Under the pieces are notes generated by a model. The model did no database searches, was not told the origin of the DNA, and was given only the letters and a program-made list of their open reading frames with translations. From Gongronella butleri (Eukaryota > Mucoromycota > Mucoromycetes > Mucorales > Cunninghamellaceae): DNA of 64,000 nucleotides. The translations under genes were made by a program, and so were the position numbers. Positions within the stretch are counted from its first letter, which is position 1. Each line of letters opens with the position of its first letter. Of the stretch, positions 42,168-62,900 are shown piece after piece. The stretch covers positions 372,001 through 436,000 of the forward strand of contig JAIWZP010000009.1 of assembly GCA_025201375.1 (NCBI GenBank). The letters are read 5' to 3'.

Positions 42168-42732
42168 TTTTGCATCGGTCATTTCACCAGCTTGCAGCAG
42201 CCCATTCTACAGCACACAAAAAAACCAGCAAAAAAAATACAGTACGTAAAAAAAAATTCCATGCAATTTACGCGCGCACCTAAATTTGGAAGTGTCAAAA
42301 CCTTAAATTTTTGCAAAAAAAATCTTGGCCAAAGTAGGCGCTTTTCTCAGTCGATCGCCGTTCATGCGTCACTCTTTGGACATTTTTCCTACGTTGGAGC
42401 AACAAGGCATTTTGTCTACCAATAGCAAATGGGCGGAGTTACCTACTTGGGATGCATTGATCTCTCGGAGTTCAAAATTTCCCGAGTTAGGCATTTTCTG
42501 AGATTGAAATTCGTGACCCCTGAGTGACCCCTGAATTTTCAAAAGTGGTCGTAGCGCTTTGGGGGTTTAAGCTTTTTTGTTCCAAAATTTGCGCTGAATG
42601 CGATGCGGCTACTTTTGAGCGGGGCTGACCATGCAGATGGCGAGATAAATGCGAAATGGGCCAAATTTGGTGCTTTTGGAAGTTGTGGTGGGCTCAAAAA
42701 AATCGGGCGAGTACAGTATGATACTGTACATA
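42168..42732. repeat. Dispersed repeat D, copy 2 (insertion host of the 3.8-kb element)
   Basis: Colinear with 29458-30010. After the mobile element the sequence GATGAGCACTGGCTA (about 46541) resumes the match to TTGAGCACTGGGCTA at about 29999. Confidence 0.65.
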
Positions 42733-42978
42733 GGAGGTCGGTCATAATTGGTTGCCTGTGCTTAGTATGATAGATCAACATTTATTTTATAGGACATCTA
42801 TGCCTTTAAAGTCTTTTTAATTGCACCACTGAACATTGTCTCCCGGGAAGACACTGTGGCCTTATACCCGTGTCTTTGCTTCGGTCCCGATTACGTAATC
42901 AATTGGTTTGCAAATGATTATCTAGACGCGTTTTAAACAATTAGACAAATTTTGAACAAAAAGACTTGCCCGATCGCC
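42733..42978. repeat. Left 246-bp direct terminal repeat
   Basis: Identical base for base with 46264-46509 by eye. It has inverted-repeat-like ends and an internal imperfect hairpin at 42844-42889. Confidence 0.92.
42844..42889. other. Imperfect hairpin in the left terminal repeat
   Basis: CGGGAAGACAC at 42844-42854 can pair with GTGTCTT at 42870-42876 and, past an 8-nt bulge, with TCCCG at 42885-42889. The loop is about 15 nt. The same structure recurs at 46375-46420. Biological role unknown. Confidence 0.5.
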
Positions 42979-43107
42979 TACAGCATCAGATGATATTAAC
43001 GTAAACGGTTCTTTTTACCTTGCGAGTAACAATAAAGCTAAAGACTACATTTCCAGCGATATTTTCTTCGATTACTCCTTGCAATTCATCACTGCTGCAG
43101 CGTGCTT

Positions 43108-44676
43108 TCACAATGCCATTATTGATATGAGGACCAGATGTAGATACGTTTTATTTCTGAACGACGCGTATCCATACTTATTTACAGTGTAAGTTTCACC
43201 AATGGCAAGACATGAATAATCAGCTCTGTATGATGATACCTGAGGGCTGTTTATGACGATCAATGACTCTGGGAGCGCATTGGTCAAGGATAACATGCTA
43301 AAGGAATCTTCTATCTTGACCAACGGCGCCAAACTGCGATTGATAGAATTTTCCAGGCGATGGTTAGGCCACTCGATGTAGATGTTCTTATAGATATCAA
43401 GGCCAACGTCGGCAAACATGCTGATATTTTCTATTTGAAGACGACTACGGGAAGGAAACAAGGAATTGGTGGACAGACCAGGTACCAACGTCATGGCGTT
43501 ACATCCTTCAGCTCTTTGGTAACGCTCGTGTTTAATAACGTCATACGAGTGATTGTTACCGGTGGTGTCAGCAGTGATTTGCTCAATAAAGAAGCAGTGG
43601 ATAATTCTGTCGTTGAAGCTGAAGTTGGCTAACAAGCACTCAAGTTTATCTCTGCTAATTTTATCTTTACAAATACCCTGCATTCGCCTTGTAAGTGAGT
43701 TCCACCAATGACAGTAAGCAAAAGTACCTGTACTCTCGATGTACACTGCAGTAACTTGGGAAAGCTTATCGACAATCTTGTGCCATTGCTCGTACAAGGG
43801 AACATTGAAAGTGGGGCATTCTGCAAGATCATCCAGCAAGTTGTTCATTGCATGTTCGTATGAGGTGGGAGCAAAGAGCGTGCTGCCGTAGATGGTTAAT
43901 TCGATACGAGTATATCCAGCACCTAGAAAACGCTTTAGTCTTTCCATGGATGAGGTATCTGGACTGGCAACAAGATGGCTGAGACGTGATCCTAGGAGCT
44001 GAAGAACTTGCGTGCTTTCCAAGGCCTGAATGAACTTGTTATAGATTTTCGTACGAGTATTTGCGTTGTTCAATTGGGGACACTTGCCTAGGTAAGAGAT
44101 GCAGTTATCACCAGTTTTTCGTCGGTCATTCACAATATCAAATATGGTGGCAAGATTGCGTGACAGGAGGTATTTTTCGATGATTTTACGCGTCGAAATG
44201 CGTGCGCAATCAACTGTCACATCGATACTTCGAATTAAGACCCTATTTTCATGCAATCTCGCGAGAGCCTCTTGTTGCAAGGAATGAAGTACGTCATTCA
44301 AGCTAATATTATGAAACGTGACATTAATACCAAGGTAACCTACTTCATTCCATGATTGACGCATTTCCATTTCCTCAGATGCGAGATCAAAGCTCTGCCA
44401 TATGCCTTTTCTGATATATTTTATGCGAAACTGATGATTTTCAAAGGCAGATAACAAGCAGCTCTTGATGATACCCATGAAGAACTTGATCTTTTGGGTA
44501 ACGTCACAATTCGTGTCAAAGGCGCACCATAGCATAATGCTGTCAACGAAAATGCTCGTAAAATCTGTCCATCCATAAAGTTTGTCATAATTTTCTGTGT
44601 AGTCAATACCATAAAGGTCGTTTAGGTATTGGGAATGTTCATAAAGGAAAGAGTTTACAATAGTGTTGGTCATCAT
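43108..44676 (-). CDS. Mobile-element protein of 522 residues, motif order like Rep_trans replication initiators
   Basis: Intronless frame from MMTNT at 44676 to a TGA at 43108. It is not a Myb/SANT protein, the usual partner gene in Harbinger elements. Its middle has, in order, IRSIDVTVDCA (149-158), CISYLGK (192-198), NTRTKIYNKFIQALE (206-220) and YTRIELTIYGS (255-265). Rolling-circle replication initiators of the Rep_trans type show the same order of an acidic beta-strand, Y-x-G, R-x-x-x-Y-x-K and R-x-E. This is pattern resemblance only: no HUH motif is seen and no catalytic tyrosine can be assigned. It is transcribed away from the transposase gene. A coherent alternative frame continues past the stop to 42986, so the C-terminus may be frameshifted. 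It could instead be a novel DNA-binding accessory protein. Confidence 0.7.
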   Translation of the reverse strand: MMTNTIVNSFLYEHSQYLNDLYGIDYTENYDKLYGWTDFTSIFVDSIMLWCAFDTNCDVTQKIKFFMGIIKSCLLSAFENHQFRIKYIRKGIWQSFDLASEEMEMRQSWNEVGYLGINVTFHNISLNDVLHSLQQEALARLHENRVLIRSIDVTVDCARISTRKIIEKYLLSRNLATIFDIVNDRRKTGDNCISYLGKCPQLNNANTRTKIYNKFIQALESTQVLQLLGSRLSHLVASPDTSSMERLKRFLGAGYTRIELTIYGSTLFAPTSYEHAMNNLLDDLAECPTFNVPLYEQWHKIVDKLSQVTAVYIESTGTFAYCHWWNSLTRRMQGICKDKISRDKLECLLANFSFNDRIIHCFFIEQITADTTGNNHSYDVIKHERYQRAEGCNAMTLVPGLSTNSLFPSRSRLQIENISMFADVGLDIYKNIYIEWPNHRLENSINRSLAPLVKIEDSFSMLSLTNALPESLIVINSPQVSSYRADYSCLAIGETYTVNKYGYASFRNKTYLHLVLISIMAL

Positions 44677-44811
44677 ATTGCACAGACTTTACAAATCTTG
44701 CTTGGTCGTCAGCGTTTGATTATAAATAGCTCTTCACATAAATGATTAATCATGTGACCATTTTAAAACGGGGCTTTATTTGAATGCACTATACATGAGA
44801 TCAAAGGCAAG
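44677..44811. promoter_or_regulatory. Divergent promoter of the two-gene mobile element
   Basis: A 135-bp AT-rich spacer between the two start codons, with TATAAATA near 44731-44738. A 6-codon uORF (44795-44815) overlaps the transposase start through ATGA. Confidence 0.5.
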
Positions 44812-46251
44812 ATGAACGATGATCTTAGACAGTTATTTCAATATTTGGTTAGAATATATTGGTCATTTCTGAATGATGACTGGCCCATTGTTGAAAGAGA
44901 GAACCATCGATCTGAAATAAAGGGAATACTTGGTATAGAGATGGTAAAAAATTACGTGCTTGAACGTTTGGGCTATATACCTGTATATTTCTTTTTGACA
45001 GTATTATTTAGCAATAGAGATTATCCTGGACCATATCGTGGAGTGGAGAAAGGCCTTTTGATATTGTATCATCTATTGACCGGTGCGTCCATGGATCAAA
45101 TGGGGCAATTTATACCCAAAAGCACCTTCAATACCATTTACAAAGCCTTTTATTCAAAGCAAGTGGACTGGCTAAATAAAAAATTAGATGAATGCCTAGC
45201 TGTGATGTTTTCGAATGTAAAGATTAGAGTAATGTATGCAAGAGAAATGAATCCTAACGAGTTTAAACATGTAACGATGATGATTGATGGTCACGATTCA
45301 CGAGCAACCTATATAAATGCATCATCGAGAGCTGATTATTATTCTTACAAATTAAAGAAATCTGGCTTTCGCACCCAGGTAGGCATGGATATCAATAGCA
45401 TGATTTTGTTTGTTTCAGAGGCTGCACCATGTGCTGCAAATAATGATGGTTCGATGCTTGTTTCGATGGATTTATCTGATAAAATAAGTCGCTTTGATGT
45501 CGTTTGTGTGGATGGAGGATATACCCTATTTATAAATCGTATATTGCACATGAACCCCCATCTTCAGATTGAGAGCTTTGTAACTCCTGTGAGAAGATCA
45601 AGAGGTGTAAATCTTAGTGCAGAAGAGATAGCTTATAACCAGCTGCTTGGCGGGTTTAGGTCATCTATAGAATCTCGTTTTGGAGAGCTTGGTCACCTTT
45701 TTCATCGATTTAATGGCAAATCTGTGATCCGCGTATCTGAAACTGCTGTCTTTACGGCACAATTCAAGTTGGCATGCGTTTTAAGCAACATGAAAAAGTT
45801 TGTTGCCATGGGACAACTTCAACAAACAGATCATCATACATTTTGGATGCATAAAGACTTTGATTATTACGGTGGTACTGCTTCTACTAGTTCTATTTAT
45901 GATGTCGTCGACATTTTGAGCATATCTGACAGACGTGCGCATAAAGAGAAAATAGAGACAATACAACAAGAGCTTTTTAATCTTACTATTGAAGATGCTT
46001 TTGCACAAGGGAGGAATTGTATTGTTAGCACTAATGTTGAAGAAGAGATGGTAATGCAAGATGCCGATCAGAGTACCGGTAATTACGAGGTTGAGAGGAT
46101 TATTAATCATCGTCATACCCCTAATGGCATCCAATACAGAGTAAAATGGATTGGATATGACAACAGACATAATAGGTGGCTATCAATGGACGAATTTAAC
46201 GACGATGGGAACATGGTACAAGAATATATGCTTACCATTACTGAGGGTTAA
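44812..46251 (+). CDS. Chromodomain-bearing DDE transposase, Harbinger/DDE_Tnp_4 type
   Basis: Intronless, 479 residues. The catalytic triad is visible as MMIDGHDSR (D159), DVVCVDGGY (D234) and SSIESRFGELG (E287), the spacing and context of DDE_Tnp_4/HARBI1-like nucleases. Residues about 1-140 form a helical N-terminal region. Residues 425-472 are a chromodomain (YEVERIINHR, then YRVKWIGYDNRHNRWLSMDEF) with aromatic-cage candidates Y425, W446 and Y449. A chromodomain would bind methylated histone tails and could steer insertion, as proposed for chromoviral integrases; here that is an inference. The frame is intact and its flanking repeats are identical, suggesting recent activity. Codon use is AT-rich, unlike the host genes. 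Confidence 0.9.
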   Translation: MNDDLRQLFQYLVRIYWSFLNDDWPIVERENHRSEIKGILGIEMVKNYVLERLGYIPVYFFLTVLFSNRDYPGPYRGVEKGLLILYHLLTGASMDQMGQFIPKSTFNTIYKAFYSKQVDWLNKKLDECLAVMFSNVKIRVMYAREMNPNEFKHVTMMIDGHDSRATYINASSRADYYSYKLKKSGFRTQVGMDINSMILFVSEAAPCAANNDGSMLVSMDLSDKISRFDVVCVDGGYTLFINRILHMNPHLQIESFVTPVRRSRGVNLSAEEIAYNQLLGGFRSSIESRFGELGHLFHRFNGKSVIRVSETAVFTAQFKLACVLSNMKKFVAMGQLQQTDHHTFWMHKDFDYYGGTASTSSIYDVVDILSISDRRAHKEKIETIQQELFNLTIEDAFAQGRNCIVSTNVEEEMVMQDADQSTGNYEVERIINHRHTPNGIQYRVKWIGYDNRHNRWLSMDEFNDDGNMVQEYMLTITEG

Positions 46252-46263
46252 TATTTAAAACAA

Positions 46264-46509
46264 GGAGGTCGGTCATAATTGGTTGCCTGTGCTTAGTATG
46301 ATAGATCAACATTTATTTTATAGGACATCTATGCCTTTAAAGTCTTTTTAATTGCACCACTGAACATTGTCTCCCGGGAAGACACTGTGGCCTTATACCC
46401 GTGTCTTTGCTTCGGTCCCGATTACGTAATCAATTGGTTTGCAAATGATTATCTAGACGCGTTTTAAACAATTAGACAAATTTTGAACAAAAAGACTTGC
46501 CCGATCGCC
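46264..46509. repeat. Right 246-bp direct terminal repeat
   Basis: Identical to 42733-42978. The hairpin lies at 46375-46420. Confidence 0.92.
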
Positions 46510-46621
46510 ATACGTAGTTCTTTCGTCTTGCTTGCTTGTTGATGAGCACTGGCTAGTGGGCCGTTCTATCGTACAGTAGTAGTATTGTAGTTCATGATGC
46601 ATGCAGTAGTGACGCATTACG

Positions 46622-47222
46622 TAGGGATGATGTACTGTATTTCAAACAAATTCAAGCTCACTCTATGATGATAAGCTCGTGTTTGAGCTTGTTTGAAAAA
46701 AAAGCTGTTTGAGCTGCACTCGTTTGAAATCGGATTTTTAGAGCTTTGATTGAAAAGCTTGAATAAGTTTATTTGAAAATATTTTTGTACATGATCACGC
46801 ATGCTGAACATCTGTGACCTCCCTGTGAAATTCATTCATTCCTCATTCATACAGTAAAGGACAAATCAAGCTTCAAGCTTCAAGCTTCAAGCCGAGTTGA
46901 TTGAAAAAGCTTGTCCGAAAGCTTGAAAATGCAAAAAGTCTCAAGAAAAAATTGAACAACACGCCACCAAAATGATGAAAATTCAGAGCATACGTACAGT
47001 ATCATACTGTATGATACAGTACGTAAGTATGATATGCATGATACCTTTTTCATTATTTTTTCAAGCTTTCAAGCTTTTTCAAACACCAAAAAAAAAGCTT
47101 GAGCTTGATTGAAATAAAATTTTGCATGTTTGAGCTTGAGTCAAACCAAGCTTTTTCAAACAAGCTTTTTTCAAACACATGTTTGAAATATGATATACGA
47201 TACTGTATACAGTACATCCCTA
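46622..47222. mobile_element. Short inverted-repeat element with AAGCTTGA subterminal repeats (601 bp)
   Basis: Left end TAGGGATGATGTACTGTA followed by TTTCAAACA. The complement of the right end is TAGGGATGTACTGTA, later TTTCAAACA. The interior is packed with AAGCTTGA/TCAAGCTT and TTTGAGCTTG words in both orientations. No 8-bp target duplication is evident (GCATTACG versus CTCTAGTT). A TA duplication of Tc1/mariner type is possible if the ends are GGGATG. No coding capacity. Confidence 0.65.
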
Positions 47223-47409
47223 CTCTAGTTGTATTTTTTAATATCATATTGTAATGCCAGCCACGTACTTGATGTACTGTATCATATCATACTGTAGAAG
47301 GCACTGGCACGCGAGCGTTGCATGAATCGTCATTTGCACGCGTCGCGACACGCCAGCAACGCAGGTTTATTCGATTTTAAAACGAGAAATAGGGGGTATC
47401 TATAAGAAA

Positions 47410-61689: not shown

Positions 61690-62900
61690 CGTGACTGTAC
61701 CCCTTGGAAAATCGGTAGAAAATCGTGCTTTTTTCAATTCGACTTAAGGCACCATCGAGTGCACTCAGCTGCACGAAACTTCGGCATATGGGCATTTTGG
61801 CCTCTCTCATTTCAGAACCAAAGTAAAAACTGGGGGTTGATCTGGCCGTTGACGAGAAAATCGACATTTCCCTATAAATTCACAATTTTGTCTTTGGCAC
61901 GTCAAGTTGCTATTCGACCTTGCTTAAACCTTACAAGTGAGAAAGAGACGCACAAGGGGGTCATTCTGTTCCTGCACGACAACGTCGATGCGCAACATTT
62001 GCACACTTCCAATGCCCAATCAAACATTTCGGCTTCATTTTTATCGGCAATGGATGAGACAAAGGACGGCGTGCTGCTGAGATCGTAGATGCAAAATTCG
62101 AATCTCTGTCGGATGAACCCAGTTTCACCAGCATACGACCAAAACTGTCTCAGAAAATCCATTTTCTAAAATCTGGCTTTATCCGCGCTTTCCTCGAGAA
62201 CGGCTTGATCGACCCCCGATTTTTATTGCGGATTTGCTTCGAAAGAGGGGTCAATGCATCTGATGATATGACTCTTAGGTCACCAGTGTGTAGGTTGCCA
62301 AACGGATTTTACATATCTGGCTTGGCCTGAACCTCTCAAAGCGGAGGACCCTCCAGATGCATTTTGACATTACCCACTTTTTTTTTTCTAAATTTGAAAA
62401 AACAACATTTCGTCATCAAAAACTCATTGCAGCGCAACAAAACTTTTACATGTAGTGGATGTTGCCCGTCTCTTCTCAGAAAAAAAATAAAAAACCAAAG
62501 GTCAACCATGTGGTTTGCAGGGAAGCACGACATTGCTGAAAATTTGGCTGTGGCGCGTTTTTGTAAAAATCATTTCGTGGTAAAATCATGATTCGATCAT
62601 CGTCAAACTTTGCCACTTGGCTATTTTAGCGTCTCTCTTTGAAGGAAAAATTAGAAAACCAGAGGTTGATCATGCCGTTTTCGAGGCATGCACCGCTTTC
62701 ATGAATTATCACAAATTCAATAATGACGACCAACACAAATCATGATTCGATTGCTTCCCATCCTTTGCGCTCGGACAATTTCGCCGCGCCTTGTTCATCA
62801 ACAACTTGCTAGACATTGAAAACCAGAGGTTGACAGGATGGTTGTGCAGATGAACTCGAAATCTCAACATTTTTACAAAAAATGTAAACACCACTCAAAC
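61690..62900. repeat. Degenerate dispersed repeat (family F), copy 4
   Basis: Colinear first with 40540-41270 (GACGCACAAGGGGGTCATTC, GATGCGCAACATTTGCACAC) and then with 26095-26420 (AGCACGACATTGCTGAAAAT, GATTCGATCATCGTCAAACT). Confidence 0.7.

Follow-up and report, generated by a model that had tools for sequence, protein, structure and literature searches.

Long terminal direct repeats (TDRs) on a DDE transposon are known from animals in KolobokP, which, according to the accessible sections of its description, couples a Kolobok transposase with a His-Me finger nuclease, has repeats of about 450 or 660 bp and also occurs as multimers, and whose molecular pathway the authors call unknown (Kojima and Bao, 2022; PMC9587614). 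In PIF/Harbinger transposons a target duplication of 3 bp is canonical, and relatives have 0, 2 or 3 bp, as far as the available excerpt of the source goes (PMC12730594). Rep_trans-type enzymes have been reported from bacteria and, distantly, from archaea (PMC13107129 for archaea). Here we analyze a two-gene DDE element bounded by TDRs, located in a 64,000-nucleotide stretch of the Gongronella butleri genome (contig JAIWZP010000009.1, positions 372,001 to 436,000, forward strand; hereafter, the window). The whole element inserts as a unit, duplicates 3 bp of the target and leaves or spreads solo TDRs. We lean toward reading it as a replicative DDE transposon whose TDRs would have two roles, as ends for the transposase and as origins of rolling-circle replication.

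The two TDRs of the window are exact copies in direct orientation (246 bp, 100% identical, or 247 bp counting the preceding A). Each has GGAGGTCGGTCA at its start and the complement of GGCGATCGGGCA at its end, two 12-mers that agree at 9 of 12 positions, and an ATA stands on both outer sides, so the identical repeats, imperfect inverted 12-mers and flanking trinucleotides claimed in a first-pass annotation of the sequence all hold (Table 1). An Rfam search of the window gave no match. Searching the genome (33 Mb, 110 contigs), we found the whole 3.8-kb unit at 99% identity in copies C45, C59 and C20, the last of them interrupted by an insert. Each copy has its own 3-bp duplication, and therefore the arrangement in the window is not due to chance. 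More distant families with genes have TDR pairs of their own, namely B (C100:354k, C50, C25, C17 and C61, with TDRs of ~220 bp), E (C52 and C29) and F (C2), and in C105 the pair is only partly preserved. Identical 3-bp flanks were present in 11 of the 12 paired copies that have both TDRs and readable outer ends (C20 included; the count excludes C105, whose second TDR is alike over only 154 bp, and the decayed C78:927k and C34). The same was true at 15 of 16 solo TDRs with both ends readable (7/7 in family A, 5/5 in C and 3/4 in D), whose ends were set by motif, leaving aside one with an eroded end (L029) and two that belong to broken gene-bearing copies (L026 and L033). The duplications vary in sequence (e.g., ATA, TAT, CTA, CAA, GAA, TTG and ACG), so only their length is fixed. 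Moreover, related host sequence contains the empty site of a complete family-B element, matching at 43 of 46 bases around the junction with one TTT, and that of a solo TDR, matching at 46 of 46 bases with one AAT; other empty-site candidates are less clean, several of them with gaps or mismatches near the junction. The recurrence of the unit, its shared outer duplication and the empty site bear out a mobile two-gene DDE element with true TDRs, and the full copies, solo repeats and 3-bp duplications by which the first-pass annotation had proposed to check this idea were all found. The sole paired copy without matching flanks (C50; L006, 234-237k; ATT/AAT) has TDRs that carry different alleles at a site concordant within each of the other four family-B copies, and it is probably a recombinant of two elements.

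An origin that had been raised for the locus was two solo elements trapping two genes, that is, two miniature inverted-repeat transposable elements inserted by chance on either side of them. Each TDR does have ends that resemble terminal inverted repeats (TIRs) and solo TDRs do carry 3-bp duplications, so TDRs may be mobile alone; however, in the window ATA/TAC flank one TDR and CAA/ATA the other, and neither has its own duplication, complete units are found repeatedly with a single outer duplication, and matched TDR pairs of their own occur in four families. The shared outer duplications and the empty site of a full copy contradict trapping copy by copy, since the full unit inserts as one, and we regard this origin as very improbable. 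Solo TDRs may have more than one source. The five scorable solos of family C are 1-8 bases apart, and the copies found include no intact family-C element with genes. This pattern suggests that a TDR can spread on its own as well, with recombination as the alternative source.

Some of the insertions have features of their own. The C20 copy (C20:409025-420415, family A, outer duplication TAG) is split by an insert of ~7.6 kb that holds a 524-amino-acid open frame with a chromodomain match. The C59 copy and the solos L027 and L030 have flanks that match window 62119-62587, and the flanks of the family-B copies C25B and C100B and of other insertions match one another; judged by these matches, the stretch in question apparently belongs to the host, as a repeat or gene family into which the element often inserts. 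Adjoining the element, the A+T-rich stretch 46600-47300 contains several CAAGCTTTTTCAAACA-like and TATCATACTGTA-like short repeats.

Table 1. Features of the element and its borders, in window coordinates (aa, amino acids).
Feature	Position	Strand	Basis or remark
Whole element, family A, copy C100	42733..46509	+	full-length copies at C45 and C59; interrupted copy at C20
Left TDR	42733..42978	+	identical to right TDR; putative origin of replication and transposon end
Right TDR	46264..46509	+	identical to left TDR
Left target-site duplication ATA	42730..42732	n/a	sequence
Right target-site duplication ATA	46510..46512	n/a	sequence
Outer left TIR-like 12-mer GGAGGTCGGTCA	42733..42744	+	sequence; similar TDR ends in other families
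Outer right TIR-like 12-mer GGCGATCGGGCA	46498..46509	-	sequence; 9/12 match to left 12-mer
Centre of left TDR, prone to hairpins and richer in G+C; weak candidate for the nick region	42835..42890	.	local fold
Same centre segment in right TDR (weak)	46366..46421	.	identical sequence
Gene 1, Rep_trans-like candidate nickase with predicted TBP fold, 522 aa	43108..44676	-	open reading frame, homologue alignment, structure models
Gene 1 predicted catalytic domain, aa 37-290 (D45, D152, D156, K210, Y212, K214, Q217, R257, E259)	43807..44568	-	
Intergenic region between divergent genes	44677..44811	.	putative shared promoter region
Gene 2, DDE transposase, 479 aa, likely triad D159, D234, E287	44812..46251	+	Pfam, alignment
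DDE_Tnp_4 match, aa 171-326	45322..45789	+	Pfam
Chromodomain, aa 425-472	46084..46227	+	Pfam

In all 12 paired copies, the TDRs of a copy are either identical or one event apart; the event in C29 is a 3-bp insertion (6 columns in the alignment owing to the length cut). Between families, the TDRs of A share only 45-56% identity with their counterparts in B, E and F, against 39-48% for shuffled A versus B, whereas much of the interior of A and B is at 77% DNA identity. Families C and D, represented only by solos, come nearer to A, with TDRs about 69-77% identical. Not only do the TDRs match within a copy, but both TDRs of the window copy also share a CAC insertion that is missing from 12 other young family-A TDRs and present in an older solo at 90%. 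For this reason the two TDRs of a copy seem to be copied from one source, as long terminal repeats (LTRs) are, and renewed at transposition. Re-pairing left and right TDRs within families A and B was a test of low power (6/24 and 36/120 re-pairings were as good), and the argument for concerted evolution rests on the between-family contrast, measured for A against B, E and F. We give hardly any credence to the idea that reverse transcription produced the direct repeats, as in an LTR retroelement: the layout and the solo repeats are LTR-like, but neither open reading frame of the window copy has a reverse transcriptase domain in Pfam. Regarding a replication origin, six of the seven families have their best local fold in the middle of the TDR, with single z-scores from 0.35 to -2.02 and combined scores of -3.1 (whole-TDR shuffles) and -2.6 (local shuffles), in which families A, C and D are not independent. 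For family A itself the fold is not significant, 41 of 200 shuffles being as good, and the hairpin-like centre is weak support for an origin.

The transposase is the better recognized of the two proteins. Gene 2 matches DDE_Tnp_4 (PF13359; E 5.7e-9, 36.2 bits, cut-off 24.8), a Pfam family that we take to be Harbinger-type, and a C-terminal Chromo domain (E 3e-10), with no other Pfam matches; the chromodomain was absent from the first-pass annotation. Residues D159, D234 and E287 are invariant in 30 aligned gene-2 sequences and likely form the DDE triad.

Gene 1 was recognized through structure and residue order. The protein of the window has no Pfam match at an E limit of 10 and no Myb match, in agreement with the claim that the second gene is unlike Myb; a SANT-like match was seen at E 0.11 in 1 of 48 homologues. 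Searching with gene 1 and a 48-member alignment of it in Pfam, PHROGs, NCBIfam and PDB sequences, we found no credible family among the best 25 of 31 and best 25 of 38 families listed. In Foldseek searches against the PDB, TBP was the best match for both structure models (E 2.9e-4 and 2.5e-4), although the true fold may be one outside the listed matches. When compared with the catalytic residues of Rep_trans, taken from the available part of PMC4797284 and from an alignment of Rep_trans proteins, gene 1 has them in the same order (D, D-x3-D, K/R-x-Y-x-K-x2-E/Q, R-x-E), keeping the catalytic Tyr and Lys and the metal-binding D, D and E. Moreover, profile-profile comparison cut to the catalytic segments paired D152/D156, K210, Y212, K214, Q217, R257 and E259 with their Rep_trans counterparts unaided, scoring 18.3 against 8.7-15.6 for nine control segments, at a probability of only 3% (E 0.014; best control 0.046). 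From these comparisons we infer that gene 1 is a candidate eukaryotic Rep_trans-like endonuclease with a predicted TBP fold. Two results weigh against this assignment: the PF02486 profile does not match gene 1, and the gene-1 profile aligned to 14 Rep_trans proteins with hhalign at a probability of 0.2%, which is not significant. Positions R140 and R189 of Rep_trans are not kept as R. Gene 1 could instead be a TBP-like DNA-binding protein, acting at transposon ends or a promoter and having no nuclease activity, in which case TDR identity would come from young age and gene conversion; the place of TBP at the top of the Foldseek matches favors this explanation, which we find unlikely. The C-terminal half of gene 1 has a conserved YCHWWNS. 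Its end differs between copies, as a TGATA at window 43123-43127, not found in C45 or C59, alters it in the window copy (522 amino acids, against 560 in C59 and C20), and C45 has a different one-base change and a 484-amino-acid open reading frame.

In the replicative reading, gene 1 would nick one strand within a TDR through Tyr212, and replication from one TDR to the other, with helicase and polymerase supplied by the host, would release a one-TDR circle. Rolling replication of this circle would produce head-to-tail concatemers with identical TDRs, from which the DDE transposase could cut at outer TDR ends and insert the interior together with a TDR on each side; the chromodomain may direct the enzyme to marked chromatin. 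A lone TDR could also be moved by the transposase or left behind by host recombination. Tandem prophages of filamentous phages release one-repeat circles in a like manner. A circular or concatemeric intermediate, as suggested in the first-pass annotation, would fit the data. The main rival, which we consider possible and yet clearly doubtful, is a KolobokP-like cut-and-paste DDE transposon with TDRs and no rolling-circle step. Gene 1 would then be a DNA-binding or site-specific nuclease that breaks the TDRs and drives gene conversion and unequal crossover, which would keep TDRs identical and restore lost units. As far as the accessible sections on KolobokP go, the layout is shared, with long direct repeats that have short TIRs of their own, 3-5-bp duplications, solos and a nuclease second gene, a candidate one here (PMC9587614), and solo TDRs are frequent in this genome. 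On the other hand, we saw no multimer (by TDR genome-wide for family A, within the flanks analyzed for the other families), and gene 1 carries the Rep_trans tyrosine set. No His-Me family was found for gene 1 in Pfam (among the best 25 of 31 families for the alignment) or in PDB sequence searches, and structure searches still allow one.

The two genes travel together. In the genome, 14 of the 17 gene-2 loci have gene 1 alongside and 14 of the 17 gene-1 loci have gene 2 alongside, which answers the earlier question of whether they co-occur elsewhere (eight chromodomain-only matches are excluded, and pieces of one copy, as in C54, count as one locus). Their order is divergent in families A and B and in C78:927k, and tandem, gene 2 then gene 1, at C29, C52, C2 and C105. 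Gene-2 relatives with no gene-1 neighbour lie at C18:525714, C54:9137-12740 and C34:680116; at C34, two decayed direct repeats of 244 bp that are 94% alike lie 1.2 kb apart. Synonymous sites are saturated in 11 of 15 gene-1 and 3 of 6 gene-2 comparisons, and in the remaining ones, where divergence is measurable, the ratio of nonsynonymous to synonymous divergence (dN/dS) is 0.08-0.20, several having dS > 2. Between families A and B (L003 and L008), synonymous divergence is 0.60 for gene 2 but has reached saturation for gene 1, which suggests that gene 1 has been exchanged as a module between families. Public data hold 59 gene-1 relatives by profile search (57 in the first search), with named sources in Actinomortierella, Rhizomucor, Benjaminiella, Linnemannia and Rhizopus, a set that points to Mucoromycota in the wide sense as the probable host group, and 188 gene-2 relatives; viral_contigs, scanned with both proteins, contained none. 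Using 120 of the 188 gene-2 matches, we could link at least 10 of the 59 gene-1 proteins to a gene-2 relative through contigs of equal size, and at least 9 of 33 on contigs of at least 3,300 bases; length-shifted controls gave 1.6 links on average and 5 at most. This public co-occurrence is suggestive.

Replitrons are eukaryotic elements of the HUH type. Chances seem about even that the element described here is the first eukaryotic transposon to pair a TBP-fold, Rep_trans-type rolling-circle initiator with a DDE transposase, with TDRs as paired origins, behaving once integrated as a tandem prophage of a filamentous phage does, with circles or concatemers given off for the transposase to reinsert, and extending Rep_trans-type enzymes to eukaryotes. 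In the open-access literature (subscription papers and Repbase being outside the scope), KolobokP was the sole DDE transposon with long TDRs that we recognized, and we found neither a Rep_trans protein in a eukaryotic transposon nor a report of a DDE_Tnp_4/chromodomain transposase with a Rep-like gene. The idea of an undescribed transposon group may hold for this combination of genes but not for the direct repeats, which are not wholly undescribed because KolobokP has them, on the accessible sections of its description (PMC9587614). Such a layout in a second lineage, with another transposase and another partner gene, would amount to a recurring strategy, for which paired origins offer a testable reason. 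If true, the presence of a Rep_trans-like enzyme in a eukaryote would broaden the known distribution of the group, and the transposon would be one that copies itself in the manner of a plasmid or filamentous phage before insertion.

Finally, the element can be set beside each of its closest counterparts. Beyond the layout it shares with KolobokP, it differs from what is available on that system in its DDE_Tnp_4 and Chromo transposase, its gene 1 with a predicted TBP fold, its shorter repeats (220-250 bp) and the lack of multimers in the loci covered. Like PIF/Harbinger, it has a DDE_Tnp_4 transposase with D, D and E, two genes and a 3-bp duplication; unlike PIF/Harbinger (PHIS), no Myb/SANT partner was found, the transposase carries a chromodomain, the duplications vary in sequence, and 246-bp direct repeats with inverted 12-mers that agree at only 9 of 12 positions take the place of bounding TIRs without direct repeats. 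The predicted TBP-like fold and ordered catalytic residues of gene 1 resemble those of the Rep_trans initiators (pT181/RepDE, pSTK1 and inovirus RstA-like), from which it differs in having no PF02486 match, no R140, a longer Y-to-R stretch and a C-terminal half with YCHWWNS, and in its fungal host and linkage to a DDE transposase. By description, it is also like Rep-Arvir, a distant TBP-fold relative of Rep_trans recognized by structure and catalytic residues rather than by sequence, which, unlike gene 1, belongs to archaeal viruses and plasmids and has a winged-helix domain (PMC13107129).
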